Assembly (NCBI RefSeq): GCF_030283145.1
Contig: NZ_JASNWE010000001.1
Span: 186,001-250,000, forward strand
Reading direction: 5' to 3'
Source of the DNA: Actinomadura xylanilytica
GTDB lineage: Bacteria > Actinomycetota > Actinomycetes > Streptosporangiales > Streptosporangiaceae
DNA: 64,000 nt
The position numbers and the translations under genes were made by a program. Every line of letters starts with the position of its first letter. Position 1 is the first letter of the stretch. Positions 1,965 to 48,817 of this stretch are shown here, piece after piece. Below the pieces are notes generated by a model. That model saw only the letters and a list, made by a program, of their open reading frames with translations, did not search any database and was not told the origin of the DNA.

Positions 1965-2429
1965 TTAGCGCCAGCCGACTGTGCTGAACGGGACACCCCG
2001 GCGGTAAGCCGCCAGCCCTTCCACGGTGTAGGGATAGGTGCCCTCTGGGAGAGCCTCAAGCGGGAACCATCCGATCGCCGAGCACTTGTGCGGCTCGGCG
2101 TTGTAGGGCTCACCCTTCCACTGCCGTGCGGCGAAGAACACTCCCACCCGGGCGTCGCCGAGACGGTTGCGGTAGTGGATCAGATGGGCGAACCCGAGGT
2201 CGGACTCAGCGATGTGGACGCCGATCTCTTCCCGTCCCTCACGGACAGCGGCGTGGGTGATCGTCTCGTCGGCTTCGAGCTTGCCGCTGGGCAAGTTCCA
2301 GCAGCCGTCGGCGTACCCGGTCCCCTCGCGCTGGGCGAGCAGCACCTTGCCGTCGCGGACCAGGATCAGCAGGGCGTCCACGATCGAGGTGTACGGAGCC
2401 GGCTTGGCCTGTGCGTTGGCTGGGGTCAT
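1965..2429 (-). CDS. Nudix hydrolase
   Basis: A 154-residue protein with a full Nudix box at about residues 48-70: glycine at the start of GKLEADET, then REGREEIGV, fitting the G-x5-E-x7-REUxEExGU pattern that binds the metal and cleaves a nucleoside diphosphate linked to another group. The N-terminal part (DALLILVRDGKVLLAQR) is the usual first strands of the fold. The substrate cannot be read from the sequence. It is the last gene of the minus-strand operon that includes the kinase, exonuclease-like and radical SAM genes, and lies 7 bases after the kinase stop. In this context it may clear or modify a nucleotide product of the operon, which is inference. Confidence 0.9.
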   Translation of the reverse strand: MTPANAQAKPAPYTSIVDALLILVRDGKVLLAQREGTGYADGCWNLPSGKLEADETITHAAVREGREEIGVHIAESDLGFAHLIHYRNRLGDARVGVFFAARQWKGEPYNAEPHKCSAIGWFPLEALPEGTYPYTVEGLAAYRRGVPFSTVGWR

Positions 2430-2436
2430 AGGCCGG

Positions 2437-3042
2437 TCAGGTTAGCGTGCTGATCAGGCCCTCCGTCGCCAGACGCGCAGAAATCCACTCGACGCGGGCC
2501 GCGGTTTTTCGTCCCGGGGGAATGACGATCGGGTTGAGCCCTGCGGCTTTCAGTTCGGCGCGTAGCAGTTCGTCGAGCTCGTCTTGCTGGTCGGCGACCT
2601 TGTCTCTGAAGCGGTCGCCGTGCTGGCGGGGGTTGAAGGTGTCGACGGGGTAGAAGACCGCGTCGTACAGGTGTGAGGTGGCGCGGCAGAGGTTGGTCAT
2701 GGCCTCCAGGACGTCCCTGTCTTTGGGGGGCAGGAGCATCCGGGCGTAGGCGACGACATTGATCAGGGTCTTGTCGCAGATGAGAAGGTGGTGGTGGCGG
2801 GCGGCGCGGAGCTGCGCGGTGAGCTGCGCGCCAAGCGCATCCAGCTCGGCCACGACGTCGAAGGTGCCGACGTGGTGGAGAACGATCTCCTCCATGAACG
2901 GGCTGATGCGCGCGGGTTCACCAGTGCAGGTGACGTGGATGCCGCGTTCGCGGTAGTGGCTGGTGAGGGCGTGGACGAGCGTGGTCTTGCCGGTGGCGTG
3001 CGTTCCTTCGACGGCGATGACCGTGCAGTCGCGTATCGACAC
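2437..3042 (-). CDS. P-loop nucleotide/nucleoside kinase-like ATPase
   Basis: A 201-residue protein with a Walker A motif GTHATGKTT at about residues 13-21, followed by a helix and a thymidylate-kinase-like pattern (GEPARISPF, then a hydrophobic strand LLICDKTLINVVAYARM with an Asp/Lys pair). Size and layout fit the deoxynucleoside or thymidylate kinase branch of small P-loop kinases rather than an AAA+ machine. The start is GTG at 3042. The gene lies 23 bases after the exonuclease-like gene and 7 bases before the Nudix gene, so the three are very likely one transcript. The phosphoryl acceptor is unknown; dTMP-like nucleotides are a guess from the fold only. Confidence 0.75.
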   Translation of the reverse strand: MSIRDCTVIAVEGTHATGKTTLVHALTSHYRERGIHVTCTGEPARISPFMEEIVLHHVGTFDVVAELDALGAQLTAQLRAARHHHLLICDKTLINVVAYARMLLPPKDRDVLEAMTNLCRATSHLYDAVFYPVDTFNPRQHGDRFRDKVADQQDELDELLRAELKAAGLNPIVIPPGRKTAARVEWISARLATEGLISTLT

Positions 3043-3065
3043 AGGGCCTCACAGGGGGCGCGGGC

Positions 3066-3818
3066 TCACAGGAGCGCTTGGAAGGTGGGGGACTTCGGCC
3101 AGTCGATGCCGTGGCCGGTGAGCTGGTCGTGCAGGATGCGGTTGACATTGACAGTGCCGGTCCAGTGCAGACGACCGGTTGCGCGTGCGGCGACGTAGGC
3201 GGCCGATAGTCCGTGACGCAGATTCAGCACGGTGATGCGTTCGCGCGCTTCGGGGTCCTGGTCGCCGAGCCATCCGTCGCGGTGCAGGGCGGTCATGGAC
3301 TGCCGGGCCAACTCGGGCTGGGTGACGTCGAGGGCCAGTTCGCCGCAGACGTCCACCAAGCGGCGGCTGGTCCCGGCCAGCACATTGCCGACGTCGTAGC
3401 GGGAGTCCACCACCGTTCGTTTCGCCAGGGCGGGGGTGTTCTTGCGGTCGTGCCAGCGCTCCCGTAGTGCCTGGACCGACGCGAGTGGCCGCTCGCTGGC
3501 GTTGCGCAGAATCGCTAGATCGCTGGAGACCTGGTGCCCGATGATGAGGTCGGCCTTCTCCAGCATCGTCGTGATCGCCTGGTCCGCCGAGTGGATCAGC
3601 TCCTGTGTCTGCCCGGGACCGGATACGTAGAAGCTGGTGAACGCGAACTCCTCCGGCGGTGGGCTGGGCGTCTTCGGCAGGTGCAGCCAAGTGATCGACC
3701 AGCAGAACGGAACGTTGCCATCCGGGATTCGGTAGTTCTTGGTCCACTCCACGTCCAGCGAGGCGGCCAGTAGGTGACCGTCTCGCTGGACGGTAGCGGG
3801 CGTGCGGTAGGTGATCAC
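3066..3818 (-). CDS. Putative DEDD-type 3'-5' exonuclease-like protein
   Basis: A 250-residue protein starting with GTG at 3818. Near the N terminus ASLDVEWTK carries the D-x-E of exonuclease motif I. A second motif, IIGHQVSSDLAIL, looks like motif II of the RNase H-like DEDD fold with its Asp. A basic and hydrophobic segment RITVLNLRHGLSAA near residue 205 sits where motif III is expected, but I do not see the usual terminal Asp clearly, so catalysis is uncertain. In the operon it lies between the unknown 278-residue protein and the kinase. Known DnaQ-like proteins trim or proofread nucleic acid; its target here is unknown. An RNase H-like protein without activity is the alternative. Confidence 0.6.
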   Translation of the reverse strand: MITYRTPATVQRDGHLLAASLDVEWTKNYRIPDGNVPFCWSITWLHLPKTPSPPPEEFAFTSFYVSGPGQTQELIHSADQAITTMLEKADLIIGHQVSSDLAILRNASERPLASVQALRERWHDRKNTPALAKRTVVDSRYDVGNVLAGTSRRLVDVCGELALDVTQPELARQSMTALHRDGWLGDQDPEARERITVLNLRHGLSAAYVAARATGRLHWTGTVNVNRILHDQLTGHGIDWPKSPTFQALL

Positions 3819-3875
3819 GTCAGGGCACCTTGTTGGAGGAGCGGGGCTTCATCGGGAGGAACACCGGTTCTTCGT

Positions 3876-4712
3876 TCATGGGGACGCCATCGAGTGAAAC
3901 CGCTGAGTGGGGAAGCAGTCTCCCGCGTTGGTCTCAAGCACCACTCCGACATCGAGGTCCTGCGGCCACTCGTACAGCCCCAGGTGCCGCGCGGCGATCA
4001 GTGCGGAGGCGAGGGCACGTTCGACCGCGCACACGGCGAGCCATTCCAGCGTCACACGCCGGTGGCCGCACTGTCCGGTGAGCGTGTCCAGGGTGAGATG
4101 CGGCTTGATGGTCCGCGAGAAGTACCCGAGCGTCAGCCCCGCGGCCTTGGCCTGTCGCTGAAGGTGTTCAGTGTCTGTGCTGCTGAGGCCGTCGCCGGGA
4201 AGGTCGTGGGCGGCGTCAACGAAGGTGGTTTCACCGCGCAGGCGACCGCTGCGGTGCGGCCACTCGGCGATGAGGGCGTGGACGCCCCGCCCGAACTCGT
4301 TGTCGCCCCGCGGCGCGTCCGGACGCACGGCGGTGCTCGCCGCCCGGAGCACGTCCAGGTCGGGCAGGAGTCCGTAACCGATCAAGAACTGCGCGAGCCG
4401 CCGAGCGCGCAACAGGTCCAGGTCCGCGAGGCGCACCAGCTCGGCGGTCTCGTCAGGGGTGAGCGCGGCCAGCGCGCGGAATCCGAGCTTCATGCGATTG
4501 CTGGCGTTCTCGGCCTTGCTGCGGTGCAGCCGCAGGTACACGACGGCATAGGAGACGGGAACGGAGCGGCCGTCGCTGTCGCGGGCGCTGCAGGTCGCCG
4601 TTGACGTCAGCAAGCGCCGCTTCGTGCGCGACGTCTGCCCGGACCCGTAGGGGTCCTCGGGCCAGCACATGTTGGTGAACCCGCCGTTCGGCACGTCCGC
4701 GGGCTCGATCAT
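3876..4712 (-). CDS. Uncharacterised protein linked to the radical SAM gene
   Basis: A 278-residue soluble protein that I do not recognise. Its ATG overlaps the stop of the radical SAM gene by four bases (ATGA, 4709-4712), so the two are translationally coupled and probably act together. It has scattered cysteines (near residues 16, 42, 215 and 229), a helical middle with a leucine- and arginine-rich stretch, and the C-terminal motif GQCGHRR followed by a helix. There is no membrane segment or signal peptide. Dependence on the radical SAM enzyme, as a partner or as a substrate-binding protein, is inferred only from the coupling. Confidence 0.7.
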   Translation of the reverse strand: MIEPADVPNGGFTNMCWPEDPYGSGQTSRTKRRLLTSTATCSARDSDGRSVPVSYAVVYLRLHRSKAENASNRMKLGFRALAALTPDETAELVRLADLDLLRARRLAQFLIGYGLLPDLDVLRAASTAVRPDAPRGDNEFGRGVHALIAEWPHRSGRLRGETTFVDAAHDLPGDGLSSTDTEHLQRQAKAAGLTLGYFSRTIKPHLTLDTLTGQCGHRRVTLEWLAVCAVERALASALIAARHLGLYEWPQDLDVGVVLETNAGDCFPTQRFHSMASP

Positions 4713-5686
4713 CGGTCGCCCCTCGCGCAGGTCATGATGCTGTCACCGAGGTACTTGCGGACGTGGTTCTCCTTGTAGGGGTACCGCTGCCAGATGTCGG
4801 TGATCGGTTCGTGGAACACGTTGCCCAGCGGCATCCACAGGTCCGGCTGGTTGTAGACGGGCCAGGCGCGGGTGACGCCGTTGGGCTCGATGACGAGCAT
4901 GTGCCCCTCGGTCTCGGCGGTCCAGGGCGTCATCCGCACCGCGGGGGTCCATGCGTGGGTGGTGCGCAGTTCCATGAGCCGGGCGAAGTGGTCGCGGGCC
5001 TCTTCCACGGTGATGAACTCGTTCTCGGGCAAGTCGAGGGCGTTGCCCTTGCGCAGGGGGAGGATCAGCTTGAGCTTGCCCACGTCCAGGACGTCGGCGA
5101 TCTGCAGCAGGTAAGGCAGGCCGTGAAGGACGGAGCGCAGCGCCACCGTGGAGAAGGAGATCGGGATGCCTGCCTCACGGAAGGCGTTGACGCCGGTCAT
5201 GACCTTGTCGTAGTCGCCGCGGACGCGCTGGAAGGTCGAGCGCGGTCCGTCGAAGCCGATGTTGGCGAAGGCGATCTTCCCGGCGAGCTTGGGCGCGACG
5301 TCCACGCCGCGGGTCGCGTTGGTCGGCAGGCCGATGATGAAGCCGTCGGTGAAGATCTCGACGATGTCGGTCAGGTCGCGGCGAAGGAGCGGTTCGCCGC
5401 CGGACAGGAACACGCGCTGGACGCCGGCGAGATTGCTCGCGGCGCTCTCTAGGTCGGCCAGCGTCGGGTCGCGCATCTGCATCGTCTCGGAGCAGAAGTT
5501 GCAGTCGAAGTCGCATCGCTTGGTGATCTGGAGGATGACCGACATCGGCGCGGTGGCCTGGTCGACGAGAGCGGCGAGGTCGGCGTCCGGGGAGAGCGTG
5601 AAGTGGTGGCCGTCGGTGAAGCGGATGGGGCCGGTGTGCTCGGCGGTGTTGCGTGCGGGGATGGGAGGCATTCCAAGCGTCGTCAT
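4709..5686 (-). CDS. Radical SAM enzyme
   Basis: A 325-residue protein starting at ATG 5686. The CxxxCxxC cluster motif is CDFDCNFC at about residue 55, after the strand VILQITKR, and is followed by the SAM-binding strand FLSGGEPLLRRD (GGEP motif). The C-terminal part PLGNVFHEPITDIW resembles the entry of the SPASM/twitch region seen in peptide-modifying radical SAM enzymes, but only one cysteine (TCARG) lies near the C terminus, so a second or third iron-sulfur cluster is unlikely. The family cuts SAM to a 5'-deoxyadenosyl radical; the substrate is unknown. Upstream is a 59-residue peptide gene; downstream it overlaps the 278-residue unknown. Confidence 0.9.
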   Translation of the reverse strand: MTTLGMPPIPARNTAEHTGPIRFTDGHHFTLSPDADLAALVDQATAPMSVILQITKRCDFDCNFCSETMQMRDPTLADLESAASNLAGVQRVFLSGGEPLLRRDLTDIVEIFTDGFIIGLPTNATRGVDVAPKLAGKIAFANIGFDGPRSTFQRVRGDYDKVMTGVNAFREAGIPISFSTVALRSVLHGLPYLLQIADVLDVGKLKLILPLRKGNALDLPENEFITVEEARDHFARLMELRTTHAWTPAVRMTPWTAETEGHMLVIEPNGVTRAWPVYNQPDLWMPLGNVFHEPITDIWQRYPYKENHVRKYLGDSIMTCARGDR

Positions 5687-5781
5687 CAGGGCACTCCAAG
5701 GTGTGGTGGCCTCCGGGCGGCGGCGGGGTGTAGGGACCGGCGAGGTGTAGCCGGCCGCCGCCCGGTGGATTCCGTGGGGAC

Positions 5782-5961
5782 CTACTCCTCCTCGTTGAGT
5801 TCTTCGATGTTGAGCTCGGCCATGGCGCGGATGACCTTGATGGCGTCGGGCAATAGGCCCTGCTGCGCCATCGCCTGCTCGTAGGCGCCGTGCGCGACGT
5901 CCAGCGCGGCATGGACGGGTATCGGGGGTGGGTCGTTGATGTGGGCACACTGTTCAGGCAT
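5782..5961 (-). CDS. Small acidic-tailed peptide upstream of radical SAM gene
   Basis: A 59-residue protein whose ATG at 5961 overlaps the stop of the ATPase gene by eight bases, so it is probably translated by coupling. It has one Cys (residue 5), a proline-rich start (NDPPPIP), a helical middle and an acidic tail ending ELNIEELNEEE. The gap to the radical SAM start is 95 bases. A short peptide directly before a radical SAM gene is the usual place for a RiPP precursor, but there is no repeated core, no Cys/Ser/Thr-rich tail and no Gly-Gly leader site, so it may instead be a small partner protein. Confidence 0.65.
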   Translation of the reverse strand: MPEQCAHINDPPPIPVHAALDVAHGAYEQAMAQQGLLPDAIKVIRAMAELNIEELNEEE

Positions 5962-6367
5962 GAGGCACCTCCAGCACCGCGAACACCCACTTGCCCGTGC
6001 CTGCCGGCCGCCAGCCGTAGTGGGCCGCCAGCTCATCCACGATGAGCAATCCGCGTCCGTCCTCTGCTTGCAGGTCCAGTGGCCTGCGGCGCGGCGGCTC
6101 AGGAGCTGGATCCCAGACCTCGATCGTCAGGGTGCCGATGACTTCCTCGCAGATCCGGACCTTGAAGGCGCGGTGCTTCCGGGCGTTGATCGCGTTGGTG
6201 ACCAACTCCGAGATCACCAGGAGGAAGTTGCCGGCCTGCTCCTCGCTGAGGCCCCAGGTGATGAGGGCGCGGGCGGCGGCGTGGCGCGCGATGCCGGCCG
6301 CCGCGGGCGTCGACAGAAACTCGCGCTCCATCAGGAACTCTTGAGTCTCTTGCGCTGCTGCGGTCAT
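5954..6367 (-). CDS. RsbW-like HATPase (anti-sigma/regulatory ATP-binding protein)
   Basis: Chosen start ATG 6367, preceded by GGGAG; starts at 6379 or 6436 in frame are possible. The 137-residue product has the single-domain HATPase_c pattern of actinobacterial RsbW-like proteins: the N box ISELVTNAINAR, then a G1-type motif EDGRGLLIVDELA near residue 105. Such proteins bind ATP and can bind sigma or anti-sigma factors; many lie beside XRE/DUF5753 regulators, as here. It is the first gene of the minus-strand operon and is divergent from the XRE gene at 6570. A regulatory role for the operon is inference. Confidence 0.8.
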   Translation of the reverse strand: MTAAAQETQEFLMEREFLSTPAAAGIARHAAARALITWGLSEEQAGNFLLVISELVTNAINARKHRAFKVRICEEVIGTLTIEVWDPAPEPPRRRPLDLQAEDGRGLLIVDELAAHYGWRPAGTGKWVFAVLEVPHA

Positions 6368-6472
6368 CGGTGGCTCCCACATCGCAACCCGGGGCGTCCT
6401 GCCGCCACCTGAAGGCGGAGCGAACGTCTGTGTCACCTGACACTGACGCCGAGTGGGCCGGGCGGGCTACAG

Positions 6473-6526
6473 GTTTGACTGTCTTTGACTCCGCCTGCTC
6501 GCAGCCGCGGTCAAAGACCGTCAAAG
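6473..6526. promoter_or_regulatory. Long inverted repeat between divergent operons
   Basis: The left arm 6473-6489 reads GTTTGACTGTCTTTGAC and the right arm 6510-6526 reads GTCAAAGACCGTCAAAG. The right arm is the reverse complement of the left with 15 of 17 positions kept, and each arm holds two TTTGAC units. The dyad lies in the gap between the ATPase-led operon (minus) and the XRE regulator (plus), so it is a likely binding site for the XRE protein controlling both directions. Confidence 0.6.
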
Positions 6527-6569
6527 GTCCGCAGCGCTACATGGCCGATACGTCAGGATCGATCACACG

Positions 6570-7451
6570 ATGCCGTCTTCACCGTCCTCTTCAGCGCAGG
6601 CAGCCCGCGAGCGCCTGGGCGAGCAGCTCCGTGAGATGCGTGCTGCCGAGCGGATCAGCGGGGTGGACTTCGCGCGCCGAGCTGGGTGGCGTGATTCCTC
6701 GCTCGTCAGCCGCACTGAGCGGGGGCAACGCCCCATCACCGTCGAGACCGTCCGCTTGTGGTGCCGGGTCTGCGAGGTTCCCGACCATCGGATGGCCGAG
6801 CTCCTGGCTGAACAGGCCAGCGTCGCGCGCATGTGGGTCTCGCTGCGCGAGCATCATGACCTCGGCCTCGACGCGCGGCAGAAGGCCACGGTCGGCGACC
6901 TGTACTCGCGTATCGACGCCGAGTTCAGCTACCAGACCAAGGTGCTTCCGGGTCTGTTGCAGACCAAGGACTACATGACCGAGATGCTGCGCGGGGTACG
7001 CCGAGACCGCAGGCTGGAGCTGGACGATGTTGCCGACGCGGTCGCCACCCGCATGGATCGGCAGCGGAACCTGCACCGGCCCGGCGTCCGGTTCTGGTTC
7101 CTGTTGGAGGAGACGGTGCTGCGGTACCTGTACTGCGCTCCTGCTGTACACCGCGCGCAGTTGGAGTACCTGATGGGGGCGATGCGGTTGCCGTCGGTGT
7201 ATGCCGTGGCGATCATCCCGATGAACTCCGGCCGGCGGGGAATCCGAGCGCGGGAGTCGTTCGAGATCGACACCTTCCCCAATGGCTCCGTCGAGGCTCA
7301 GGTGGAGTTGCTGTCAGGGCTGTTGACTCTCACTCATCCCGAGGACGTCGCGCTGTACCGGCGGGCGTGGGACGACCTGTTCGGCCTCGCCGTCATCGGC
7401 AAGGAGGCCAGGGCGTTGATCCGATCGGCCCTGGCCGCCCTCGACGGCTGA
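6570..7451 (+). CDS. XRE-family regulator with DUF5753 domain
   Basis: A 293-residue protein. The N-terminal helix-turn-helix covers about residues 12-70 (LGEQLREMR, VDFARRAGW, SLVSRTERG), and the rest is the DUF5753 domain with its typical ATKVLPGLLQT-like segment (here TKVLPGLLQTKDYM) and a C-terminal LFGLAVIG region. The family is very common in actinomycetes next to DUF397, DUF6879 or RsbW-like ATPases. Here it is divergent from an ATPase gene across the dyad at 6473-6526, and its stop is one base from the stop of the convergent DUF6879 gene. It probably represses or activates the adjacent operon. Confidence 0.9.
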   Translation: MPSSPSSSAQAARERLGEQLREMRAAERISGVDFARRAGWRDSSLVSRTERGQRPITVETVRLWCRVCEVPDHRMAELLAEQASVARMWVSLREHHDLGLDARQKATVGDLYSRIDAEFSYQTKVLPGLLQTKDYMTEMLRGVRRDRRLELDDVADAVATRMDRQRNLHRPGVRFWFLLEETVLRYLYCAPAVHRAQLEYLMGAMRLPSVYAVAIIPMNSGRRGIRARESFEIDTFPNGSVEAQVELLSGLLTLTHPEDVALYRRAWDDLFGLAVIGKEARALIRSALAALDG

Positions 7452-7452
7452 C

Positions 7453-8232
7453 CTACTCGGGCTTGAACTCGGCGTGTGGAGTCGCCCGGTTCCACGCCGT
7501 CTCGAAGGACCCGGCGATATCGCGGGCGACGCGCGGGTCGGAGTTGAAGGAGTAGACGCGCGGGTTGGAGTCGTCGCCACGCTGGAAGTTCCATCGGATG
7601 ACACGGTCGTCGAACACCCAGCAGTCAGCGGCGGGCACCAGCAGGTCTGCGGCCTGGTCGCGCCACAGCCATCGGATGTCCTCGCCCACCGCGATATTCG
7701 CGTGAGTGACCGCGTGCTCCCACTTCATGTACTCCGACATCGGCCGGGAGATGATGCGGACACGCCGCCAGCGAACCCCGCGGCGGGTGGCCTCACGAAC
7801 GATGTCCCCGAACTCTTCGAGATCGTGATCGACGACGGCGATGTCCCCGGACTCGCGCCACTCCTCGAAACGGGCGGCCTCGGTGACGTCGTAGGCGTCC
7901 CTGCATTCGAAGCGGATCACCGACCGCTCAGCGGCGGCGGCCAGAGCGGCGAAGTCATGGGGGCCGGCGCCCTCCCGGCCTTGCTCGTACTCATCGTCGA
8001 TCGCCTCGCGGATCGCGGGGAACAGCCGGTCAGGCACCCATACGTCGGTCTCGTCCTCGCCCTTGCCCACGTCCTCGCTGAGACGCTGGGTCGTGCCCGG
8101 ATCGGCCACCGCCTTTCCTCGGACGTAGAGGCCGCCGGGAGTTCGCCACACGGCAGGGCACTCCGCCTTGTCGGAGTCAGGGTCTCCACCGACGAAGTCC
8201 ACCTCGGAAGGATCGATGTGGTTCTGATCCAT
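7453..8232 (-). CDS. DUF6879 family protein
   Basis: A 259-residue protein, taken from ATG 8232 (MDQNHIDPSE), which gives a normal acidic N terminus; an upstream in-frame extension to 8346 looks non-coding. The last 180 residues match the DUF6879 pattern: RFECRDAY, then RISRPMSEYMKWEH, VGEDIRWL, a WVFDD strand and a Trp/Phe-rich end. The first 80 residues are acidic and lack a known fold. DUF6879 proteins are usually the small partner of XRE/DUF5753 regulators; this one is convergent with such a regulator. The biochemical function is unknown. Confidence 0.75.
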   Translation of the reverse strand: MDQNHIDPSEVDFVGGDPDSDKAECPAVWRTPGGLYVRGKAVADPGTTQRLSEDVGKGEDETDVWVPDRLFPAIREAIDDEYEQGREGAGPHDFAALAAAAERSVIRFECRDAYDVTEAARFEEWRESGDIAVVDHDLEEFGDIVREATRRGVRWRRVRIISRPMSEYMKWEHAVTHANIAVGEDIRWLWRDQAADLLVPAADCWVFDDRVIRWNFQRGDDSNPRVYSFNSDPRVARDIAGSFETAWNRATPHAEFKPE

Positions 8233-36920: not shown

Positions 36921-37681
36921 CCGACACACCCCGCACGCGCGGGGAGAATGGAGCGAGCTGCACCCGGAACTCGGCGTTGAACGGGCCACCCCCGCTCGCG
37001 CGGGGAGAACGGACCGGGCTGGGGACGGATCACGCCGCGTGCCGGGCCACCCCCGCTCGCGCGGGGAGAACGAGGTCGACGGCCGCGGGGAGGCCAAGGA
37101 TTTCGGGCCACCCCCGCTAGCGCGGGGAGAACGATGGTCATGCTCGGGTCCCTCCTAGATAGGGAGGGCCACCCCCGCTCGCGCGGGGAGAACGGCTGGG
37201 GGTCCTCAGGAGGCCCGGCCGGGGGCGGGCCACCCCCGCTCGCGCGGGGAGAACTCCTCGGCCAGCATCGCCTCGTAGAGCTCGACCGGGCCACCCCCGC
37301 TCGCGCGGGGAGAACTCCCCGCTCGCGGTGTACTCCTGGGCTACGGCCGGGCCACCCCCGCTCGCGCGGGGAGAACTTCGAGCTTGATGCTTTCCATGGT
37401 TTTGCTCCCGGGCCACCCCCGCTCGCGCGGGGAGAACCCAGAATCCCCTTAAAAGCTCTTCGACTGTTTCGGGCCACCCCCGCTCGCGCGGGGAGAACCA
37501 GCTCGGCTTACAGAAAGGGCAGCGGCGGTTCGGGCCACCCCCGCTCGCGCGGGGAGAACCGCCGCCTACGTCGCCAAGCACGGCCGCGAACCGGGCCACC
37601 CCCGCTCGCGCGGGGAGAACGGTCGTCCTCCCTCATTCATCCGCCACTCGAACGGGCCACCCCCGCTCGCGCGGGGAGAAC
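36921..37681 (-). CRISPR. CRISPR array 2 (type I-E), 13 repeats
   Basis: There are 13 repeats of 29 bases at a 61-base period, on the minus strand; in that direction they begin GTTCTCCCC and end GGTGGCCCG, one base different (T26C) from arrays 1 and 3. The left-most copy (36921-36949) has seven differences and is the degenerate trailer end. Repeats at 37104 and 37165 each carry one change. The leader end is on the right, 21 bases from the cas2 stop, so the array follows cas2 in the same direction and may be read from the cas operon or from a promoter inside cas2. Confidence 0.98.
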
Positions 37682-37705
37682 ACTTCGCGACCTGCAGTGT
37701 TGTCA
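37682..37705 (-). promoter_or_regulatory. Leader-repeat junction of array 2, next to the cas2 stop
   Basis: Reading on the minus strand, the cas2 stop (37705-37703) is followed by seven bases and then GCAGGTCGCGAAGT directly before the first repeat. The same 14 bases precede the first repeat of array 3, so they are probably the sequence read by the Cas1-Cas2 integrase for spacer insertion. Any longer leader must lie inside cas2. Confidence 0.75.
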
Positions 37706-38017
37706 GGGGTTTACTGTTTCGTTATCTGGTTCGGTGGGGTTGAGGGCGATGAGGGTGAGGCCGTCGAAGTCGATGGGTGTGCGGCGGCGGTGGCCGGCAG
37801 TGTGGAGTGTGAAGCCTTGTTCGTTGGCGTCGGGATGCAGGAGGAGGGCGGCTCCGTCGCCGATGGATGCGGCGATGGTGGTCCAGAGTTCGGTGCGGAC
37901 GCGTGCGGAGAGGGTGCCGACGTAGAGGCCGGGCATGGGCTCGATCATCCAGCGGGTGAGGGCGCCGCGTAGGTGGTCGGGGATCGCAGTGGTGGCGATG
38001 ACGGTCATGGTCGCCAT
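37703..38017 (-). CDS. cas2: CRISPR-associated Cas2 (type I-E)
   Basis: A 104-residue protein from ATG 38017; ATG 38008 is three codons inside. It has the type I-E Cas2 pattern: MTVIATTAIPDHLRGALTRW, then MPGLYVGTLSARVRTELW and GAALLLHPDANEQGF. Cas2 dimers join two Cas1 dimers to capture and insert spacers. The start is one base after the cas1 stop. The C-terminal end is close to array 2, with little room for a leader. Confidence 0.95.
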   Translation of the reverse strand: MATMTVIATTAIPDHLRGALTRWMIEPMPGLYVGTLSARVRTELWTTIAASIGDGAALLLHPDANEQGFTLHTAGHRRRTPIDFDGLTLIALNPTEPDNETVNP

Positions 38018-38018
38018 G

Positions 38019-38993
38019 TCACTCGTGTCCGTAGTTGGTGCCGCCTGCGAGGCGCCCGAAGTCGGGGTCCCACAGGTCGACGAGTTCTTCGGCGGCTTCC
38101 TCGGCGTCCTCTTGGCGGGTGCCATCGTCGGGATCCAGAAGAGTTTGGATGTCGGCGACGATGCGCGGCAGCAGGCGGAACAGGCGCAGGCCGTCGCGGA
38201 ACGAACGGCGGGCCTGGCCGTCGGGGTCGGTGGAGTCGTGGAGGGCGAAGGCCAGCGGGAGGGTGAGTTCGGCCTTGTAGAGATCGGCGATGTCATAGAC
38301 GAAGGAATGCGAGGTGCCGGTGTGGACGAACCCGAGGCCGGGGGTGCAGCCGATGGCGTTGATCGCGGCGTGGGCTATGCCGTAGAGGCAGGTGTTGGCG
38401 GCTGAGAGGGCCCGGTTGACGGGGTCCTGCGCGTCCCAGTCGTCGGGGGCGTAGGAGCGTTTGAAAGGGCGTACACCGTTCTGCTCGGCGAGCATCCGGT
38501 ACAGCGCTTTCATGCGCTGCCCTTCCAGGCCGCGCAACTGGGCGATGCCGGCGTCAGCCGGGACGGTGTCGCCGAACCGCTGGCGGTACATGCGCCGTGC
38601 GACGGCGGCGCGCTGGGTATCGTCGCTCCACGCGCGAACCTGGGTCTCCAGCCACCGGGTGGGCAGGGAGTCTGCGACGGACGCGGCATAGCAGCGGACT
38701 CCGCCGGCCCCGGTGCAGATGACGGTGGTGCCATGCCGTGCGAGGGTCGACAACGCGCGGGTGGTGATCGACACGCCTGGACCGAGCAATAGGCAGCCGA
38801 GGGCCGCGGTGGGCAGGGCGACGCGGTGAACGTCGTCGCCGAGCTCGAAACGGGCTGTGACGCCGGTGTCGTCCTGCACGATGCGCGCGATGTCGATGTA
38901 GAGGAACGACAGCGAATCGCCGATACGGGGCAGCATCGCGGCAGTAGGCGCGGCCAAGCGCTGGCGAGCGTTACGGGGAGATCTAGTGCTCAT
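38019..38993 (-). CDS. cas1: CRISPR-associated Cas1 integrase (type I-E)
   Basis: A 324-residue protein from ATG 38993. Conserved parts include LPRIGDSLSFLYIDIARIVQ, ALSTLARHGTTVICTGAGG, then the metal-site segment NRALSAANTCLYGIAHAAIN, GFVHTGTSHSFVYDIADLYK with His and Asp, and a helical acidic C terminus. It is the catalytic subunit of spacer insertion. The start overlaps the cas6e stop by four bases (38990-38993). Confidence 0.96.
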   Translation of the reverse strand: MSTRSPRNARQRLAAPTAAMLPRIGDSLSFLYIDIARIVQDDTGVTARFELGDDVHRVALPTAALGCLLLGPGVSITTRALSTLARHGTTVICTGAGGVRCYAASVADSLPTRWLETQVRAWSDDTQRAAVARRMYRQRFGDTVPADAGIAQLRGLEGQRMKALYRMLAEQNGVRPFKRSYAPDDWDAQDPVNRALSAANTCLYGIAHAAINAIGCTPGLGFVHTGTSHSFVYDIADLYKAELTLPLAFALHDSTDPDGQARRSFRDGLRLFRLLPRIVADIQTLLDPDDGTRQEDAEEAAEELVDLWDPDFGRLAGGTNYGHE

Positions 38994-39634
38994 GATGCGG
39001 GGGCGATGGTGAGGAGCCCGCAGCCGAACGATTTGCCGCGGCCGATGCCCGTGCGGATCCGTTCGAGGAGCATCTTGGGGTCGGTGACAGTGGCGGTGCC
39101 GTCGAAGCGGGTGCGGGCGTGGGTGAGGCGGGTGTTGTCGCCGCGCTTGCCGGTGACCTGGCCCAGCGGGCTGCTGTACATGCTGTGCAGGACGAGCCCG
39201 GCGGTGTCGGCCTGGCGCTGCCACCACTGGTCGGCGTCGGCGCCGTTCAGGGGGACGACCTGTTTGGGGCGTCCGGCTGTGGTGTTCTTGCCCAGCTTGC
39301 GGGTGGCGTTAGCGGTGATCCGGTAGTGGACGTTGGCGCCTTCGCGTAGGCCGTCCAGGAGGGGGGTCAGGTTCTTGGTGCGGGCCGCGCCGTAGGCATC
39401 GGGCAGGTGCTGGAGGGCGGGTTCGATGGTGCTCTGGACCAGGATGGTGAATCCGGCGGGCTGCTCTTCCAGCCGGAACAGGGCGGCGGCCTGACGGCGG
39501 GCTTCGGGCCCGAGGTCGTCGGGGAACAGGCTCATGATGCGCTGGTGCAGTTTGACGACGTCACGAAGGTCGCCGTGCACGGCGCGGTGTCGGGGGTCGG
39601 GGGCGATCTGGGTGATCCACAGGTCGGTGCTCAT
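38990..39634 (-). CDS. cas6e: crRNA endonuclease Cas6e (Cse3)
   Basis: A 214-residue protein from ATG 39634. RAVHGDLRDVVKLHQRIMSL carries the His used in cleavage of the repeat stem-loop, and the glycine-rich end RIRTGIGRGKSFGCGLLTI is the G-loop of the second ferredoxin-like domain. It cuts pre-crRNA at the base of the CCCCGC/GCGGGG hairpin and stays bound to the crRNA 3' handle. Confidence 0.95.
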   Translation of the reverse strand: MSTDLWITQIAPDPRHRAVHGDLRDVVKLHQRIMSLFPDDLGPEARRQAAALFRLEEQPAGFTILVQSTIEPALQHLPDAYGAARTKNLTPLLDGLREGANVHYRITANATRKLGKNTTAGRPKQVVPLNGADADQWWQRQADTAGLVLHSMYSSPLGQVTGKRGDNTRLTHARTRFDGTATVTDPKMLLERIRTGIGRGKSFGCGLLTIAPAS

Positions 39635-40455
39635 GCTGGTCCGCTTCCGATGGACGGATCGGGGTTCAGGTGCCGGTTGAGACGCTTGAGGTAGTCGATG
39701 CCCAAGCCCGCGCACTGTTCGGCGGGCAGGTTCAGGTGCCGGCGGTAGACGGGACGGGTCCGGTATTGCCGGTTGTGCGGTGAGAAGGAGACCGGGTCGT
39801 CCTGGGCCTCGGTGTAGACCTGGTCGGAACCTGTGGTGTTCGGGTCCTCGGGCCAGGCGTCGGCGGTGAACGGGGTGTCCGCACGGAACTCGACGGTGAC
39901 GATCTGGTCCCGGGTCGGTGCCTGACGTGCGAGAGGCAGGTCGATCAGGCCGGTGGCCGGGTCGTCGTGAAGTGCGGCCAGCAGCAGAGGGGCATTGGGT
40001 GGGCAGGATCGGCGGCCCAGGTAGGGCGGCCAGACCGGGGCGCGCAGGGCGTCGGCGCAGGTGTCCAACAGGTCGGGACGTGGCGCGGTGACGGCGACGG
40101 CGAACGCGGCGTCCTGAAGGTAGAAGCGGTTGGAGACCAGGGTGGCGGTGTCGGCGGAGCGGCGTTTGCCTTCTGCGGTGATGACGGTGAGCGGGCGGGG
40201 CATTCCTCCGCCGACCGTGTGGAAGTCGCGCAGCAGGGTTCCGGGGCGGTCGATCCGCACCGTGAAGCGCAGCTCGGCCAGTTCGCCCAGAGGCTGGTCG
40301 CGGTGGCGCCCCAGGGCCGCGGCGATCATCCCGATGAGGCCGGACCGGGTGGGCGCCCGGGAGGTGTCGCGCTGGTTGAAGCGCGAGCGTTCTCCCCAGG
40401 ACTGGAGCGGAGCGCTGAGGTGCAGCAACAGCCCTGTGGTGGACGGGGCGGTCAC
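39631..40455 (-). CDS. cas5e: Cascade subunit Cas5e
   Basis: A 274-residue protein. The N terminus LLLHLSAPLQSWGERSRFNQ and RDTSRAPTRSGLIGMIAAAL is the standard Cas5e start; the last third has PVYRRHLNLPAEQCAGLG. It caps the 5' handle of the crRNA in Cascade. It overlaps cas6e by four bases and cas7e by four bases. Confidence 0.95.
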   Translation of the reverse strand: MTAPSTTGLLLHLSAPLQSWGERSRFNQRDTSRAPTRSGLIGMIAAALGRHRDQPLGELAELRFTVRIDRPGTLLRDFHTVGGGMPRPLTVITAEGKRRSADTATLVSNRFYLQDAAFAVAVTAPRPDLLDTCADALRAPVWPPYLGRRSCPPNAPLLLAALHDDPATGLIDLPLARQAPTRDQIVTVEFRADTPFTADAWPEDPNTTGSDQVYTEAQDDPVSFSPHNRQYRTRPVYRRHLNLPAEQCAGLGIDYLKRLNRHLNPDPSIGSGPA

Positions 40456-41651
40456 ACCGTTTCCTTCACCGCGAGCGCACTGTCGAGGGCTCCGTCGATC
40501 AGCTCGTCGAAGGACTTGACGCGGTCCCCGAGGCCGTCGGTGTCGGCGGTGGACAGCGTCGACAGCGTCGCGTGGGCGCTGTGGCGCAGCCCGCCGGTCC
40601 CCAGCAGAGTCTGTGCGGCGGCGGCGTAGGTGCTGAGCGCCTTGACCGAGGGGTCGCTGTGGCCGCCGGAGTGGTCGGCGCGGACGGGCTTCTCGAAGGC
40701 CGCCGCATGGGAGAGCGGACGGTCGGTCCGGACGGCCAGGTGTGCCAGGTGGGGGATGGTGTTGGGGGCTGTGGAGTTCTTCTTGGCGTGCGGAAGTGAC
40801 AGCAGTCCGGCCCGGATCAACGCGGCGGCCAGTTCGCGGGTGTCGGCGAGGTCGCCGCCAAGGTTGGTGTGCAGGTCGCGCAGGTCCAGGACGATGTAGC
40901 GGTAGAGCACTCCGGCGCTGTGTTCGGCCTGGCCCATGTGGGCGCTGCCGGTGGTGTCTCCCCAGGAGTCGGTGACGTCGTCGACCGCGCTGAAGTAGTC
41001 GATCTCGGTGTCGGTGGCGTGGGTGGTGAAGGAGTGGGCGACCTGGACGGCGCCGTCGACCTTGGCCTCGTCGACCTGGGCGAGCATCCGGCCGAACAGG
41101 CTGATGATCCCGTTGCGGCTGCGCAGCACCGCGTCGACCTCGGCGCCGGGGATGACGGAGTGCTTGCGCTCGAACTTGGCGGGGTCCTTGGCCTGTTCGA
41201 GAACGTCCCGGTGCGTGATGGCCAGTTCAGCGAGTTCGGCGATGCCGGTACTGGGGATGTAGATCATCGCAGCCGTGGCCCAGGCGTCCGAGAGGCCATT
41301 GGACGGCTCGTCCGCGTCCTTCTTCTTTTTCGGTGCTTCGGCGCCGACGCTGCTGGCGATCGCCGTGTGGCGTCCGGCGCGTTCGGCGAGGTCGGCCGGC
41401 CAGTCGTGCGCGTTCACCAGGTGATCGGCCAGATACTCGGGCAGGCGCCGGGTGCGCAGGGCGTTCTGGCCGAGGGCCTGCTGTAGGTGCAGGCGCATGG
41501 CGCGCTTCCAGCACTGGCTGCTAACCCGGGTGCGCTCCCGGTCTCCCCACTTCACGGTCTTGATCGCGTTGTTGTCGTCGCGGTTCAGGTTCGCGAACGG
41601 GACGGGCTGGATGATGTGCGCTTCGAGGTAGCGGCCGGGGATCGTGGTCAT
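40452..41651 (-). CDS. cas7e: Cascade backbone subunit Cas7e (Cse4)
   Basis: A 399-residue protein from ATG 41651. It begins YLEAHIIQPVPFANLNRDDN and VKWGDRERTRVSSQCWKRAM, the typical Cas7e start, with later segments FGRMLAQVDEAKVDGAVQVA and YFSAVDDVTDSWGDTTGSAH. Six copies usually bind the spacer part of the crRNA. It lies 31 bases after cse2. Confidence 0.95.
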   Translation of the reverse strand: MTTIPGRYLEAHIIQPVPFANLNRDDNNAIKTVKWGDRERTRVSSQCWKRAMRLHLQQALGQNALRTRRLPEYLADHLVNAHDWPADLAERAGRHTAIASSVGAEAPKKKKDADEPSNGLSDAWATAAMIYIPSTGIAELAELAITHRDVLEQAKDPAKFERKHSVIPGAEVDAVLRSRNGIISLFGRMLAQVDEAKVDGAVQVAHSFTTHATDTEIDYFSAVDDVTDSWGDTTGSAHMGQAEHSAGVLYRYIVLDLRDLHTNLGGDLADTRELAAALIRAGLLSLPHAKKNSTAPNTIPHLAHLAVRTDRPLSHAAAFEKPVRADHSGGHSDPSVKALSTYAAAAQTLLGTGGLRHSAHATLSTLSTADTDGLGDRVKSFDELIDGALDSALAVKETV

Positions 41652-41682
41652 GGGTTGCTCCTGTGAACGAGTCTGGAATTGG

Positions 41683-42264
41683 CTATTCGGAGTCGTGCTC
41701 TTCGCCGTCTGCGGCTTGTGCGGCCTCACGTTCGGCTGCGTACCGGGTCCGATAAAAGGACTGCAACCAGCGGCGCGTGACCTGGTCGCGGTAGTCCTCC
41801 CAGTCGCACAGGTCCAGCAGCAATTGCGCCCAGTCCACCGCCGACGGGCGGTCGGACAAGACCCGGACCGCCGAGGGCAGATGACGGTGCACGCCGTCGA
41901 CGCTCTGCCGGGTGAGCAGGCTCAGACGTGCCTCAACTGCTTGTTCGCGCAGCACGCGGCCGACGCCCTCGGCAAGACAGGTACCGAAATTGCGCTGCGA
42001 GGGGCCACCGGCGCCGCGCGCTTGGGGCGGTAGTGAGGCGATCATCGCCGCGACCGCGTAGTAGGCGCGCTCGCTGCTGTCGCGACCTCGCGGTACCCGC
42101 CAGGCGATGGCTTGGTGCATCCGCTGGCATCGGTCCATCGGGCGGCCCAGTCCGCTGCGGAGAGCGGCGCGTTTGCCGGGATCTTCGCACAACCGCAGAA
42201 CGTCGGTGACGAAGTCCTGGGCATGGTCATATCTGGTCTTGGACGGTTGTTCCTGAGTGGTCAT
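41683..42264 (-). CDS. cse2: Cascade small subunit Cse2 (Cas11)
   Basis: A 193-residue helical protein from ATG 42264. It has LRLCEDPGKRAALRSGLGRP near the N terminus, RAYYAVAAMIASLPPQARGA, and the end WAQLLLDLCDWEDYRDQVTR RWLQSF, as in other actinomycete Cse2 proteins. It holds the displaced DNA strand in the R-loop. The 110-base gap to cas8e has no gene. Confidence 0.93.
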   Translation of the reverse strand: MTTQEQPSKTRYDHAQDFVTDVLRLCEDPGKRAALRSGLGRPMDRCQRMHQAIAWRVPRGRDSSERAYYAVAAMIASLPPQARGAGGPSQRNFGTCLAEGVGRVLREQAVEARLSLLTRQSVDGVHRHLPSAVRVLSDRPSAVDWAQLLLDLCDWEDYRDQVTRRWLQSFYRTRYAAEREAAQAADGEEHDSE

Positions 42265-42374
42265 GAGGTCCTGCCGAGAGGGATCGGATGTGCTGAAAGC
42301 AGGTCCCGGCGCACCGAGATCAGGCATGTGCGCTGGAGGATCGGTCCTTGGCGGGAGGGGAGGCCGTGGGCAGG

Positions 42375-43901
42375 TCAGTCCTTGCCCTTGGGCTTACGGC
42401 GACCGCCGTACAACTCCACCCGGGCGTGCTCGATCGCGCGGGCGCTGCGAACGTCGCGGACATGGTCCTGCGTGACCTGGTCGAACGTGGTGCTGGCCGC
42501 GTTCAGGAACGGCTGCCACGGATTCAGGTACTCCTGCCGGCGCATCCGGCCCCAGAAGATCTCCTCCGCAGCCGGCCAGTAGCCGGCGGCGGCATGCTCC
42601 GACCACGCGCACGGGCCGAGCTTGGTGTCGGTGACCGCGGCCCACGCCCGTTTGACGGCGAGGTCGAGCCGCCGCCCGTACAGCTCCCCGGCGTTACGCA
42701 GATCACCGATGCGCCGGGCCGCGGCGGGATCGTCGTCCCAGATCCGGAAGAACAGCGGCGGGGTGGTGGCCGAGACGAACTGGACGTCCTTGGTCTTGCC
42801 GTCCTGCTCGAAACCCAGCGCCCGCACCTTGAACGTCCCGAGATCGTCGATGGTCTCGAACACCTCGGGGCGTCGGGCGTGTTGCGGCTGGGCGGTACCG
42901 GTGGTGTCCAGTTGCAGGAGTCCGTCCAGGTCACGCCAGAGCGCGCGCCCTGCGTCGGCCGGACGCGAGTAGGGGTTCCCCTGCTTGCTGATCTGTTGGA
43001 TCACGTAGGCATCGTGGGTCGAGGGCTGCTTGTGGCGGCGTCCCCAGGTGACATAGGCGTCGGTGACGTGGGCGCCGGTGGCATCGGGGACGAGCAGCAG
43101 CGCGTGCTGCCAGCCGCCGGTCAACCGGGAACACGGCCCGGGATACGCCTCGGGTTGCCTGGGCGGCGCCAACGGGTCGGGGAGGTCGGGCAGCTCCCAC
43201 GGACATAGGTCGTCCTGGGGCTGCAACCCCGGCGGCGGGAGCGTCAGACCGGCCAGCAGCGTCTCTAGTAGCGAGTCGCCCTCAGGATGGTAAGACAGGC
43301 TCGATCGCAGCGGCCCCGCCGACACGTCCGCCGCGGTCGTGTCCGCGTGGGTGCGTGTCCCGCATCGACCCGAAGGCCCGTAGTACAGCCAGACGAGCAA
43401 CGCGGCGAGGGCGTCGGCTGCCGGGATCGGTACCGGTGTGGCATCCCAGTGATGGCCGAACCAGACGGCGTTATTGCCGGCCGGTCGGCCCACGGCGACC
43501 TTGTTCACCCCGGCGCTCTTGGGACACACCTCGGGATCGGCCAGCCGCGGGTCCTGGAGGAACGGACGGTCAGGGTCGAAGAGATCGAACCTGCCGGTCA
43601 GACCTTCGAAATAGCCGCCGACCGCGTCGGGGTCCAGAGGCGCACCTTGAAGGTCTTCCCGGCGGTCCCGCCAGTCGTCCTCCCCCGCGTCCAATCCTGT
43701 GATCCGCGCCGTCATCGCGTACAGCAGGCGGTAGGTGGCCGATAGCGCGGGCGGTGGCGTGATGGTCAGCGCCTGGATCTCGTGCGCGTGGATGAGCAGG
43801 TCCTTCAAACCGACCTTTGAAGGACGTTCGGGATCCGGATCCTTCCAGCGGACCTCGGCCCACCGCTCGGTGGCCAGATCGAAACTGGGTCGCTGCACCA
43901 T
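42375..43901 (-). CDS. cas8e: Cascade large subunit Cas8e (Cse1)
   Basis: A 508-residue protein with GGGGAGG six bases before the ATG. It has the Cse1 features: GLKDLLIHAHEIQALTITPP near the start, LFDPDRPFLQDPRL and VGRPAGNNAVWFGHHWDATP, a region that contacts the PAM in other Cse1 proteins. The C-terminal part is the helical bundle. It recognises the PAM and recruits Cas3. It leads the cas8e-cas2 operon. Confidence 0.95.
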   Translation of the reverse strand: MVQRPSFDLATERWAEVRWKDPDPERPSKVGLKDLLIHAHEIQALTITPPPALSATYRLLYAMTARITGLDAGEDDWRDRREDLQGAPLDPDAVGGYFEGLTGRFDLFDPDRPFLQDPRLADPEVCPKSAGVNKVAVGRPAGNNAVWFGHHWDATPVPIPAADALAALLVWLYYGPSGRCGTRTHADTTAADVSAGPLRSSLSYHPEGDSLLETLLAGLTLPPPGLQPQDDLCPWELPDLPDPLAPPRQPEAYPGPCSRLTGGWQHALLLVPDATGAHVTDAYVTWGRRHKQPSTHDAYVIQQISKQGNPYSRPADAGRALWRDLDGLLQLDTTGTAQPQHARRPEVFETIDDLGTFKVRALGFEQDGKTKDVQFVSATTPPLFFRIWDDDPAAARRIGDLRNAGELYGRRLDLAVKRAWAAVTDTKLGPCAWSEHAAAGYWPAAEEIFWGRMRRQEYLNPWQPFLNAASTTFDQVTQDHVRDVRSARAIEHARVELYGGRRKPKGKD

Positions 43902-44118
43902 GGAACCTCCCCTTCTCCGATGAGATGACCGACCGGTAACCTGATCACCGGCGGCGAAAGTCGTCTCGAATGCGTCCGCTCCCCTGAAGCAGACGGCCCG
44001 GCACGACGACGGGCGCCGCCAACGATGTTGAGAAATCCCTGTTCAGCGGGGGTGAGCCGCCTGTCTGGGGCAGGAATGCGTGGCTCAGAGAACAAGTCCC
44101 TGCGAAAGCGGGGGTGTG

Positions 44119-44158
44119 CCGAGACTCCCGGAACGACGCGTCCGGGGGTCTCGGTTTT
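44119..44158. terminator. Hairpin between cas3 and cas8e
   Basis: CCGAGACTCCCGGA (44119-44132) pairs with TCCGGGGGTCTCGG (44141-44154) over eight bases, with one wobble, and is followed on the plus strand by TTTTC. It lies 29 bases after the cas3 stop in the 281-base gap before cas8e. It could limit read-through from cas3 or stop antisense transcription entering cas3. The rest of the gap (43902-44118) should hold the cas8e promoter. Confidence 0.6.
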
Positions 44159-44182
44159 CAAAATGTAGCAAGCCTGTATGGG

Positions 44183-48814: not shown

Positions 48815-48817
48815 AGG

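Follow-up and report, generated by a model that had tools for sequence, protein, structure and literature searches.

A mobile five-gene cassette with a radical SAM enzyme in Actinomadura xylanilytica: a candidate viperin-like pathway for an abnormal nucleotide

A 64,000-nucleotide stretch of the Actinomadura xylanilytica genome (contig NZ_JASNWE010000001.1, positions 186,001–250,000; hereafter the window, with positions counted from its first letter) contains a compact set of genes for predicted nucleotide-handling enzymes beside an array of clustered regularly interspaced short palindromic repeats (CRISPR). Do these genes form a unit, and what does it make or remove? A first-pass annotation had recognized an unfamiliar operon of seven closely spaced or overlapping minus-strand genes with a divergent XRE regulator, and all of these genes are present. 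As a unit the operon holds in part: five genes form a conserved core that recurs elsewhere, whereas an RsbW-like ATPase, a small peptide and the XRE regulator do not belong to it. At a probability of about 0.45, we consider the core to encode a mobile viperin-like pathway that makes an abnormal (deoxy)nucleotide and probably serves in conflicts with viruses. Its genes are a radical S-adenosylmethionine (SAM) enzyme and four partners:

4709–5686, minus strand: radical SAM enzyme, 325 residues (PF04055, 1e-15; AlphaFold2 model; PDB comparison)
3876–4712, minus strand: 278-residue protein, a degenerate, fast-evolving DnaQ-fold paralogue of the next protein (hhalign to the 250-residue family)
3066–3818, minus strand: 250-residue DnaQ/exonuclease-fold (DEDD-like) protein (AlphaFold2 model; conserved columns)
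2437–3042, minus strand: P-loop nucleotide-kinase-like protein, 201 residues (AAA_28/thymidylate-kinase-like; PF13521, 9e-14)
1965–2429, minus strand: Nudix (MutT-like) pyrophosphohydrolase, 154 residues (PF00293, 3.1e-18)

Conservation of the cassette and replacement of its partners

The radical SAM and 278-residue genes overlap by 4 nt, and the gaps that follow, in order to the Nudix gene, are 57, 23 and 7 nt. Relatives of the cassette (loci are designated L, surveyed genomes G) were collected from genome surveys, a scan of named genomes (22 loci), viral-contig scans and a phage search, with duplicates removed. Family A, which includes the window, comprises 19 loci: 13 bacterial (the window and L036–L047) and six viral (L058, L084, L089, L090, L091 and L093). 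The kinase is found by hidden Markov model (HMM) in all 18 loci whose contig reaches it (L036 ends before). A Nudix gene is present in 16 of these 18; the L039 and L047 copies are reversed, and that of L043 is displaced and accompanied by fragments. L046 has MazG instead, which brings the pyrophosphohydrolase to 17 of 18. The 278-residue type occurs in 18 of 19 loci (not L046), the 250-residue type in 14, and at least one DnaQ-fold protein in every locus. The order radical SAM enzyme, DnaQ-fold protein, kinase is kept in 17 of the 18 loci with a kinase, the kinase coming first in L046. Two genes are split: the kinase gene between frames in L040, and the 278-residue gene in L036. In the proposed check on co-occurrence with the radical SAM gene, the kinase is constant and the exonuclease-like and Nudix genes are frequent but not universal; neither an absence of conservation outside this genome nor a different, known pathway for the homologues emerged.

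The cassette is rare. Among 297 genomes of the order, its own included, the full-length radical SAM enzyme at ≥65% identity occurs in five; the kinase at E ≤ 1e-20 occurs in exactly the same five and no other, an association that exceeds chance. The 278-residue protein is found in these five, as a remnant in G257 and as a short match in G030, and the 250-residue protein in four of the five, as a remnant in G257 and as weak matches in G288. Six further genomes have radical SAM matches, four of them to a sister family B (G115, G288, G025 and G064) and two to fragments (G260, 65% over residues 2–96, and G095). In the phylum, at least one of 396 genomes has a match at E ≤ 1e-40. At most 7–10 candidates per genome were scored in the order and five in the phylum, so that these counts are lower bounds.

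Family B comprises 11 loci (L032, L033 and L048–L056) whose radical SAM enzymes are 30–34% identical to that of the window (six rows). The hosts are Actinomadura species, Thermomonospora, Phytohabitans, two genomes of the window's family, and one actinobacterial and one Sphingobacteriales metagenome-assembled genome. Each locus has a nucleotide kinase, thymidylate-kinase-like in 10 and guanylate-kinase-like in L048 (55.1 bits, below the cut-off of 160.45). Each also has an HhH-GPD protein, whose only Pfam match, PF00730, is below cut-off; one member scores 101.4 bits against TIGR03252, below the cut-off of 136.5. MazG is present in 9 of 10 loci (L056 is cut off) and was not found by HMM near L048. 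The HhH-GPD protein thus stands in for the DnaQ-fold proteins and MazG for Nudix, while a nucleotide kinase is kept. These roles persist although the partner proteins that fill them in the two families are unrelated, and we regard this replacement as the strongest argument for a nucleotide pathway. Actinomadura rubrisoli H3C3 carries both cassettes, family A (L036) and family B (L053). A tblastn search of phages with one family B radical SAM enzyme (E ≤ 1e-10) returned only the family A copy of Streptomyces phage Gilgamesh, and a scan of viral contigs with the same single query returned none.

The kinase and Nudix assignments are at family level. The window kinase matches the PHROG thymidylate kinase (2e-14) and, under its cut-off, PF02223 (4.3e-05); it scores 21.1 bits against the dTMP kinase model TIGR00041 (cut-off 83.25). 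The Nudix protein scores 66.5 bits against PF00293 (cut-off 21.1). In PADLOC 2.0.0, which gives no cut-offs, the Nudix protein matches PDC-S07 (1.1e-13) and the radical SAM enzyme matches pVip models (2.6e-10 and 3.2e-07); the remaining matches of the nine proteins searched have E ≥ 4e-05.

The radical SAM enzyme and the DnaQ-fold pair

The CxxxCxxC motif that binds the SAM cluster (C58, C62 and C65) is present in all 18 aligned radical SAM rows. No further cysteine is common to the 18, and the cysteines of auxiliary iron–sulfur clusters are absent from them. The Pfam SPASM model scores 16 bits on the window enzyme (cut-off 21.5), and Pfam detects no B12-binding domain in it. Basic residues that are invariant in the radical SAM alignment include R149, R156, K204, K206 and K213. 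The AlphaFold2 model has a mean predicted local distance difference test score (pLDDT) of 88.3. Its best eight PDB neighbours are viperins or viperin-like enzymes, with Z-scores of 24.0–24.9 and root-mean-square deviations (rmsd) of 2.4–2.6 Å over 253–257 residues; six of the eight entries have cytidine or uridine triphosphate (CTP or UTP) in their titles. Sequence identity to the viperin structures is 15–16%, and mouse viperin with CTP superimposes on the model with TM-scores of 0.68/0.75. The peptide maturases SuiB and SkfB come almost level with the best viperins, and further neighbours are PqqE (Z 20.3), BlsE (20.1) and MoaA (19.5).

The 278-residue protein, listed as unknown in the first-pass annotation, has no match in Pfam, NCBIfam, PADLOC (E ≤ 0.1) or PHROG (E ≤ 0.01). 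It is nonetheless related to its neighbour. Used as a genome query, it recovers the 250-residue protein encoded next to it (28% identity, E = 5.8e-4), and hhalign of the two families (9 versus 10 sequences) gives a probability of 99.3 (E = 3.5e-20). From this profile comparison the two proteins are paralogues, the 278-residue protein being the degenerate one.

The nearest structures to the 250-residue model (AlphaFold2, pLDDT 88.9) are exonuclease domains from family B DNA polymerases, led by that of polymerase alpha (Z 14.6, rmsd 3.6 Å over 181 residues). Foldseek matches are weak (best row 5e-4) and include TREX1. The earlier designation as a DEDD exonuclease-like protein is correct as to the RNase H-like exonuclease fold, but only three of the four DEDD acids are kept: D22 in eight of nine rows (the ninth begins after it), and E24 and D100 in all nine. 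Other invariant residues are D138, R140, Y141, D142, R152, R153, D156, R201 and H202. In our reading, the protein has the exonuclease fold, but its classical site is incomplete and a new patch of polar residues is conserved.

Phage carriage and genomic setting

In phage Gilgamesh, a sequenced phage whose host S. lividans is a laboratory strain, gp39–43 are the five genes, annotated as hypothetical proteins, thymidylate kinase and MutT-like. In a tree of 25 rows, the viral copies fall into a single clade within family A and group with Frankia and Actinophytocola (support 100/99); L044 has a long branch. Nineteen contigs of the Gilgamesh-like lineage were assembled, 16 from a portal-protein scan and the others from the remaining viral loci; the viral scans are pattern-limited, and the portal scan missed L058 and L093. 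The slot upstream of gp44 is visible, at least partly, in 16 contigs, of which five hold the cassette and 11 do not. In L091 the cassette is present, but the genes that flank it in Gilgamesh have no match there. The cassette is cargo of temperate phages, moving between soil bacteria and their viruses. Plasmid carriage was rejected: one radical SAM query from each family gave no match at E ≤ 1e-15 among 72,556 plasmids.

Other cargo occupies the same slot. The L102 cassette (2462–8190) has seven genes, encoding a thymidylate-synthase-like protein, NDK, a 387-residue CxxxCxxC protein, a DnaQ-type exonuclease (PF00929), an AAA_28 kinase, an aldo-keto reductase and a last protein that has no Pfam match; L094 (3211–8966) has the same gene order, read by eye. 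The CxxxCxxC protein matches nothing in Pfam, PDB sequences or NCBIfam, and we therefore call it radical SAM-like by its motif alone. L104 (61–2686) holds a B12-binding radical SAM enzyme, a Nudix protein and a thymidylate kinase that passes TIGR00041 (93.1 versus 83.25 bits), and is possibly a nucleoside-analogue cassette. Two slots hold genes for ribosomally synthesized and post-translationally modified peptides (RiPPs): an FxLD methyltransferase in L099 (420.2 bits, cut-off 320), and a graspetide maturase (399.8 versus 350) with a precursor domain (51 versus 25) in L101. In L096, L097, L098, L103, L105 and L106 the cargo was judged by eye alone; a precursor-like open reading frame (ORF) in L103 has no family match. 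Elsewhere in the Gilgamesh genome (L087 16505–19277, record positions 101504–104276), gp114 is labelled a queuine tRNA-ribosyltransferase and gp116 a PAPS-reductase-like protein, a hint of 7-deazaguanine DNA modification.

In the window, the setting is accessory DNA beside a CRISPR array, as first described. The final repeat of this array, whose period is 61 nt, lies 32 nt from the stop codon of the Nudix gene. Three arrays of one repeat family are present (15–1932, 36982–37681 and 47196–48815), with Cas1/Cas3-type genes at about 37703–46825. The cassette lies between a relaxase gene 3 kb upstream of the window start (in L129) and a tyrosine integrase gene (49125–50471), surrounded by TraG/D-type coupling, DUF2637, primase and Cas1/Cas3 genes. 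It therefore appears to sit in a putative conjugative or mobilizable element, which suggests that the CRISPR-Cas system is also carried by a mobile element. A tRNA-Val gene (L129 16804–16877) that overlaps the end of the relaxase ORF is a possible attachment site. In spacer 9 (531–563), 22 nt are identical to the 5'-end region of a tRNA-Ala gene about 100 bp downstream of a family B MazG gene (L030); this spacer might be directed at a phage tRNA or at a site of integration. A functional link between the cassette and the adjacent array was rejected: by blastn, the compared loci contain no full-length spacer match except in the window's own genome, and the repeat occurs only in that genome's loci.

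The genes upstream of the radical SAM gene form a regulator module:

5687–5781, minus strand: 95-nt gap with a G+C-rich hairpin between the peptide and radical SAM genes (fold −43.2 kcal/mol)
5782–5961, minus strand: 59-residue ORF, probably part of the regulator module and not of the core (relative only in A. rubrisoli L036, E = 9e-17)
5954–6436, minus strand: HATPase_c_2 (RsbW-like) regulator, non-core (PF13581, 2.1e-13)
6570–7451, plus strand: divergent XRE/DUF5753 regulator, non-core (PF19054, 1.1e-31; PF13560, 8.5e-11)

The HATPase and peptide genes overlap by 8 nt. The hairpin in the 95-nt gap (z −2.42; 6 of 200 shuffles fold equally well) is a possible attenuator or cassette boundary. 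The HATPase, peptide and XRE genes directly adjoin the radical SAM gene, the window aside, only in A. rubrisoli L036, and a seven-gene operon was rejected on this ground. Relatives of the peptide are absent from 10 regions around radical SAM genes (best E 1.4); in the compared loci they were sought among ORFs of at least 40 residues at E ≤ 1e-4. HATPase-type genes recur a few kb away in L039, L049 and L050 and in the phage loci L058, L084, L089 and L093, accompanied by XRE-type genes in L049 and L050. Because of this recurrence we treat the HATPase and XRE genes as a regulator module common near such cargo, and a looser regulatory link to the cassette may exist.

Two further observations concern the neighbourhoods. 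Directly upstream of the radical SAM gene of A. hibisca (L037 9186–9920, the same as L016 11300–12034) lies a gene that by eye is 2'-5' RNA ligase/phosphoesterase-like. Beside the family A cassettes of L040 (951–5831) and L047 (4816–9728) lies a common cluster of QueD-, QueE- and thymidylate-kinase-like genes (families scored in L040), perhaps another nucleotide-modifying cassette.

Proposed pathway, alternatives and known systems

The recurrence of 19 loci, the partner replacement in family B and the viperin-like radical SAM model support the modified-nucleotide half of the initial proposal. In the pathway that we favour, the radical SAM enzyme would apply a 5'-deoxyadenosyl radical to a nucleotide substrate, which would most likely be a monophosphate or a triphosphate; this choice is suggested by the viperin-like fold of the model together with the lack of auxiliary clusters. 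The kinase, thymidylate-kinase-like by family, would raise the substrate or the product toward the triphosphate. The Nudix protein, or MazG in the relatives, might hydrolyse excess analogue or a competing normal nucleoside triphosphate and so limit self-harm. The DnaQ-fold pair, or HhH-GPD in family B, could recognize or remove the analogue at the carrier's own polymerase or nucleic acid; given its incomplete classical active site, the DnaQ-fold pair may act as binding subunits. A precedent for such removal is the SARS-CoV-2 nsp14 exoribonuclease, which is reported to excise viperin's ddhCMP from RNA (PMC9415739). The carrying element or lysogen would benefit if replication or transcription of rival phages were poisoned. 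Viperins are reported to make chain-terminating nucleoside triphosphates that act against phage T7 in Escherichia coli (PMC12926258, PMC9642334, PMC10732462).

The defence part of the proposal is plausible, given temperate-phage cargo and the conjugation and CRISPR-Cas surroundings, but the evidence for it is indirect. We tentatively extend it, with clearly less confidence than the pathway itself, to a new set of mobile chemical antivirals: interchangeable nucleotide-analogue cassettes on phages and conjugative elements, used for superinfection exclusion or defence independently of viperin. Each would combine an enzyme that makes the analogue, a kinase that activates it and enzymes that clean up, and the set would cover the window's radical SAM family, the L104-type and L102-type cassettes of the phage slot, and the bacterial sister family. 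According to a review, phage transcription is also inhibited by Streptomyces class I lanthipeptides (PMC9642334), and an exchange of RiPP for nucleotide cassettes in one slot would be consistent with this. If the proposed pathway is correct, nucleotide analogues made by radical chemistry would recur as mobile weapons in bacterial–viral conflict beyond viperin, with the activating kinase and clean-up enzymes packaged together in one cassette of about 4 kb, and the cassettes would offer new enzymes for making nucleoside analogues.

Several observations weigh against this pathway. The peptide maturases SuiB (Z 23.8) and SkfB (Z 23.5) lie within about 1 Z of the viperins, other viperin entries are lower (5vsl 23.0, 5vsm 22.6 and 6b4c 20.1), and SkfB has both the top Foldseek E-value and the top PDB sequence match. 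The window enzyme scores 28.9 bits and one family B enzyme 39.8 bits against the curated viperin model NF038283 (cut-off 180); sub-threshold matches occur in 142 of 149 genomes and in all 14 control genomes, with none above the cut-off. The low score and the ubiquity of such matches mean that sequence lends no support to viperin, and the name was rejected on that basis. In the 250-residue protein, Ala207 occupies, in nine of nine rows, the position at which DEDDh motif spacing expects the last aspartate, an assignment made by motif spacing only. That protein is missing in L040, L042, L043, L045 and L047, and L041 has neither Nudix nor MazG. Finally, the 80 proteins neighbouring 11 family A cassettes (7 kb on each side, at least 100 residues, own gene calls, L045:1228–2079 left out) include no dominant known defence system by Pfam and PADLOC. 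The suggested comparison of neighbours for defence genes yielded scattered matches: mads_2-like in three, and QatA-like, PifA-like, E1-E2-like and pVip-type radical SAM in one each. Other matches are to a SAM methyltransferase family in three, and to PTPS, an extra radical SAM enzyme, integrases and transposases in two each.

Among the alternatives, a small natural-product cluster, in which the radical SAM enzyme, kinase and Nudix protein make a secreted nucleoside antibiotic that is not directed at phages and the DnaQ-fold or HhH-GPD proteins confer self-resistance, is unlikely, yet the foremost. The structural neighbours include BlsE of blasticidin S, the same phage slot holds RiPP cassettes above curated cut-offs, and almost all named carriers belong to the actinobacteria, which are known for antibiotics. 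The cassette is, however, very small for a secondary-metabolite cluster. HATPase-type regulators (seven) and a methyltransferase-like group (six) are the only non-core groups in more than five compared loci, and inspection by eye revealed no conspicuous exporter or phosphatase. Somewhat less probable again is a modification of DNA (or RNA), with the kinase and radical SAM enzyme altering bases in the polymer or a dNTP precursor to resist restriction, in the manner of phages with hypermodified thymidine. Phage carriage and the annotated queuine tRNA-ribosyltransferase of Gilgamesh would suit it, as would the family B combination of kinase, HhH-type protein and radical SAM enzyme, which resembles hypermodification gene sets. 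Against it, the cassette is dispensable in the phage lineage (absent from 11 of the 16 visible slots) and is also carried by bacterial genomes, family A and B cassettes have no thymidylate-synthase-like gene, and the HhH protein, with PF00730 below cut-off as its only Pfam match, resembles TIGR03252.

Nudix and MazG are classic sanitizing enzymes, and their presence would be expected if the cassette served nucleotide sanitation or cofactor housekeeping by clearing a damaged nucleotide of host or phage origin; this we consider improbable, as it leaves the invariant radical SAM enzyme, the rarity and the cargo-slot behaviour unexplained. The modified-peptide half of the initial proposal fares worst. 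It would have the radical SAM enzyme modify the 59-residue peptide encoded upstream, as a RiPP, and can cite the adjacency of the two genes in the window and A. rubrisoli and the close folds of SuiB and SkfB. A related ORF is found neither in the 10 radical SAM regions nor, that one near relative aside, in the compared loci, the three SAM-cluster cysteines are the only ones common to the 18 rows, and the kinase, Nudix and DnaQ-fold proteins would be unexplained; we regard it as very improbable.

A description of this cassette was not found by title and abstract in the open PubMed Central (PMC) literature, a scope outside which most subscription papers lie. The nearest in concept is the DefensePredictor study (PMC13092281), a passage of which predicts nucleotide-modifying domains (aGPT-Pplase, MazG and nucleotide kinase) in defence. 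It resembles our proposal in casting nucleotide enzymes as defence, but names no cassette of radical SAM, kinase, Nudix and DnaQ-fold genes in that passage, and the terms 'radical SAM' and 'Nudix' are absent from its main text. Passages on a nucleotide kinase and a radical SAM enzyme in a second paper (PMC10853773) concern Dnd systems.

Four enzyme systems invite closer comparison. The SPASM RiPP maturases (SkfB, SuiB and PqqE) have close folds, SkfB and PqqE being the best PDB sequence matches, but the window enzyme lacks auxiliary-cluster cysteines and no conserved precursor was found. Phage thymidine hypermodification, comparable to the family B set of P-loop kinase, HhH-type protein and radical SAM enzyme, differs in that the cassettes here have no thymidylate-synthase-like gene and their HhH protein is nearest to TIGR03252; as regards the aGPT-PPlase and hmdU DNA kinase families, the Pfam labels given are PF00730 to the HhH protein and AAA_28/Thymidylate_kin-type to the kinases. 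The B12 radical SAM nucleotide chemistry of the oxetanocin type (OxsB) has a counterpart in slot cassette L104, which couples a B12-binding radical SAM enzyme with a thymidylate kinase and Nudix, whereas the window enzyme shows no B12-binding domain. Viperin, the SAM-dependent nucleotide dehydratase, shares with the window enzyme the CxxxCxxC motif and a similar fold over about 255 residues at 2.4–2.6 Å, and one PADLOC model of prokaryotic viperins is named kinase-associated. The window enzyme differs from viperin in its score (28.9 versus 180 bits) and its identity of 15–16%, and the cassettes add Nudix or MazG and DnaQ-fold or HhH-GPD partners. We regard the system as a candidate for viperin-like nucleotide chemistry delivered by a new mobile set of several enzymes that is distinct from viperin.

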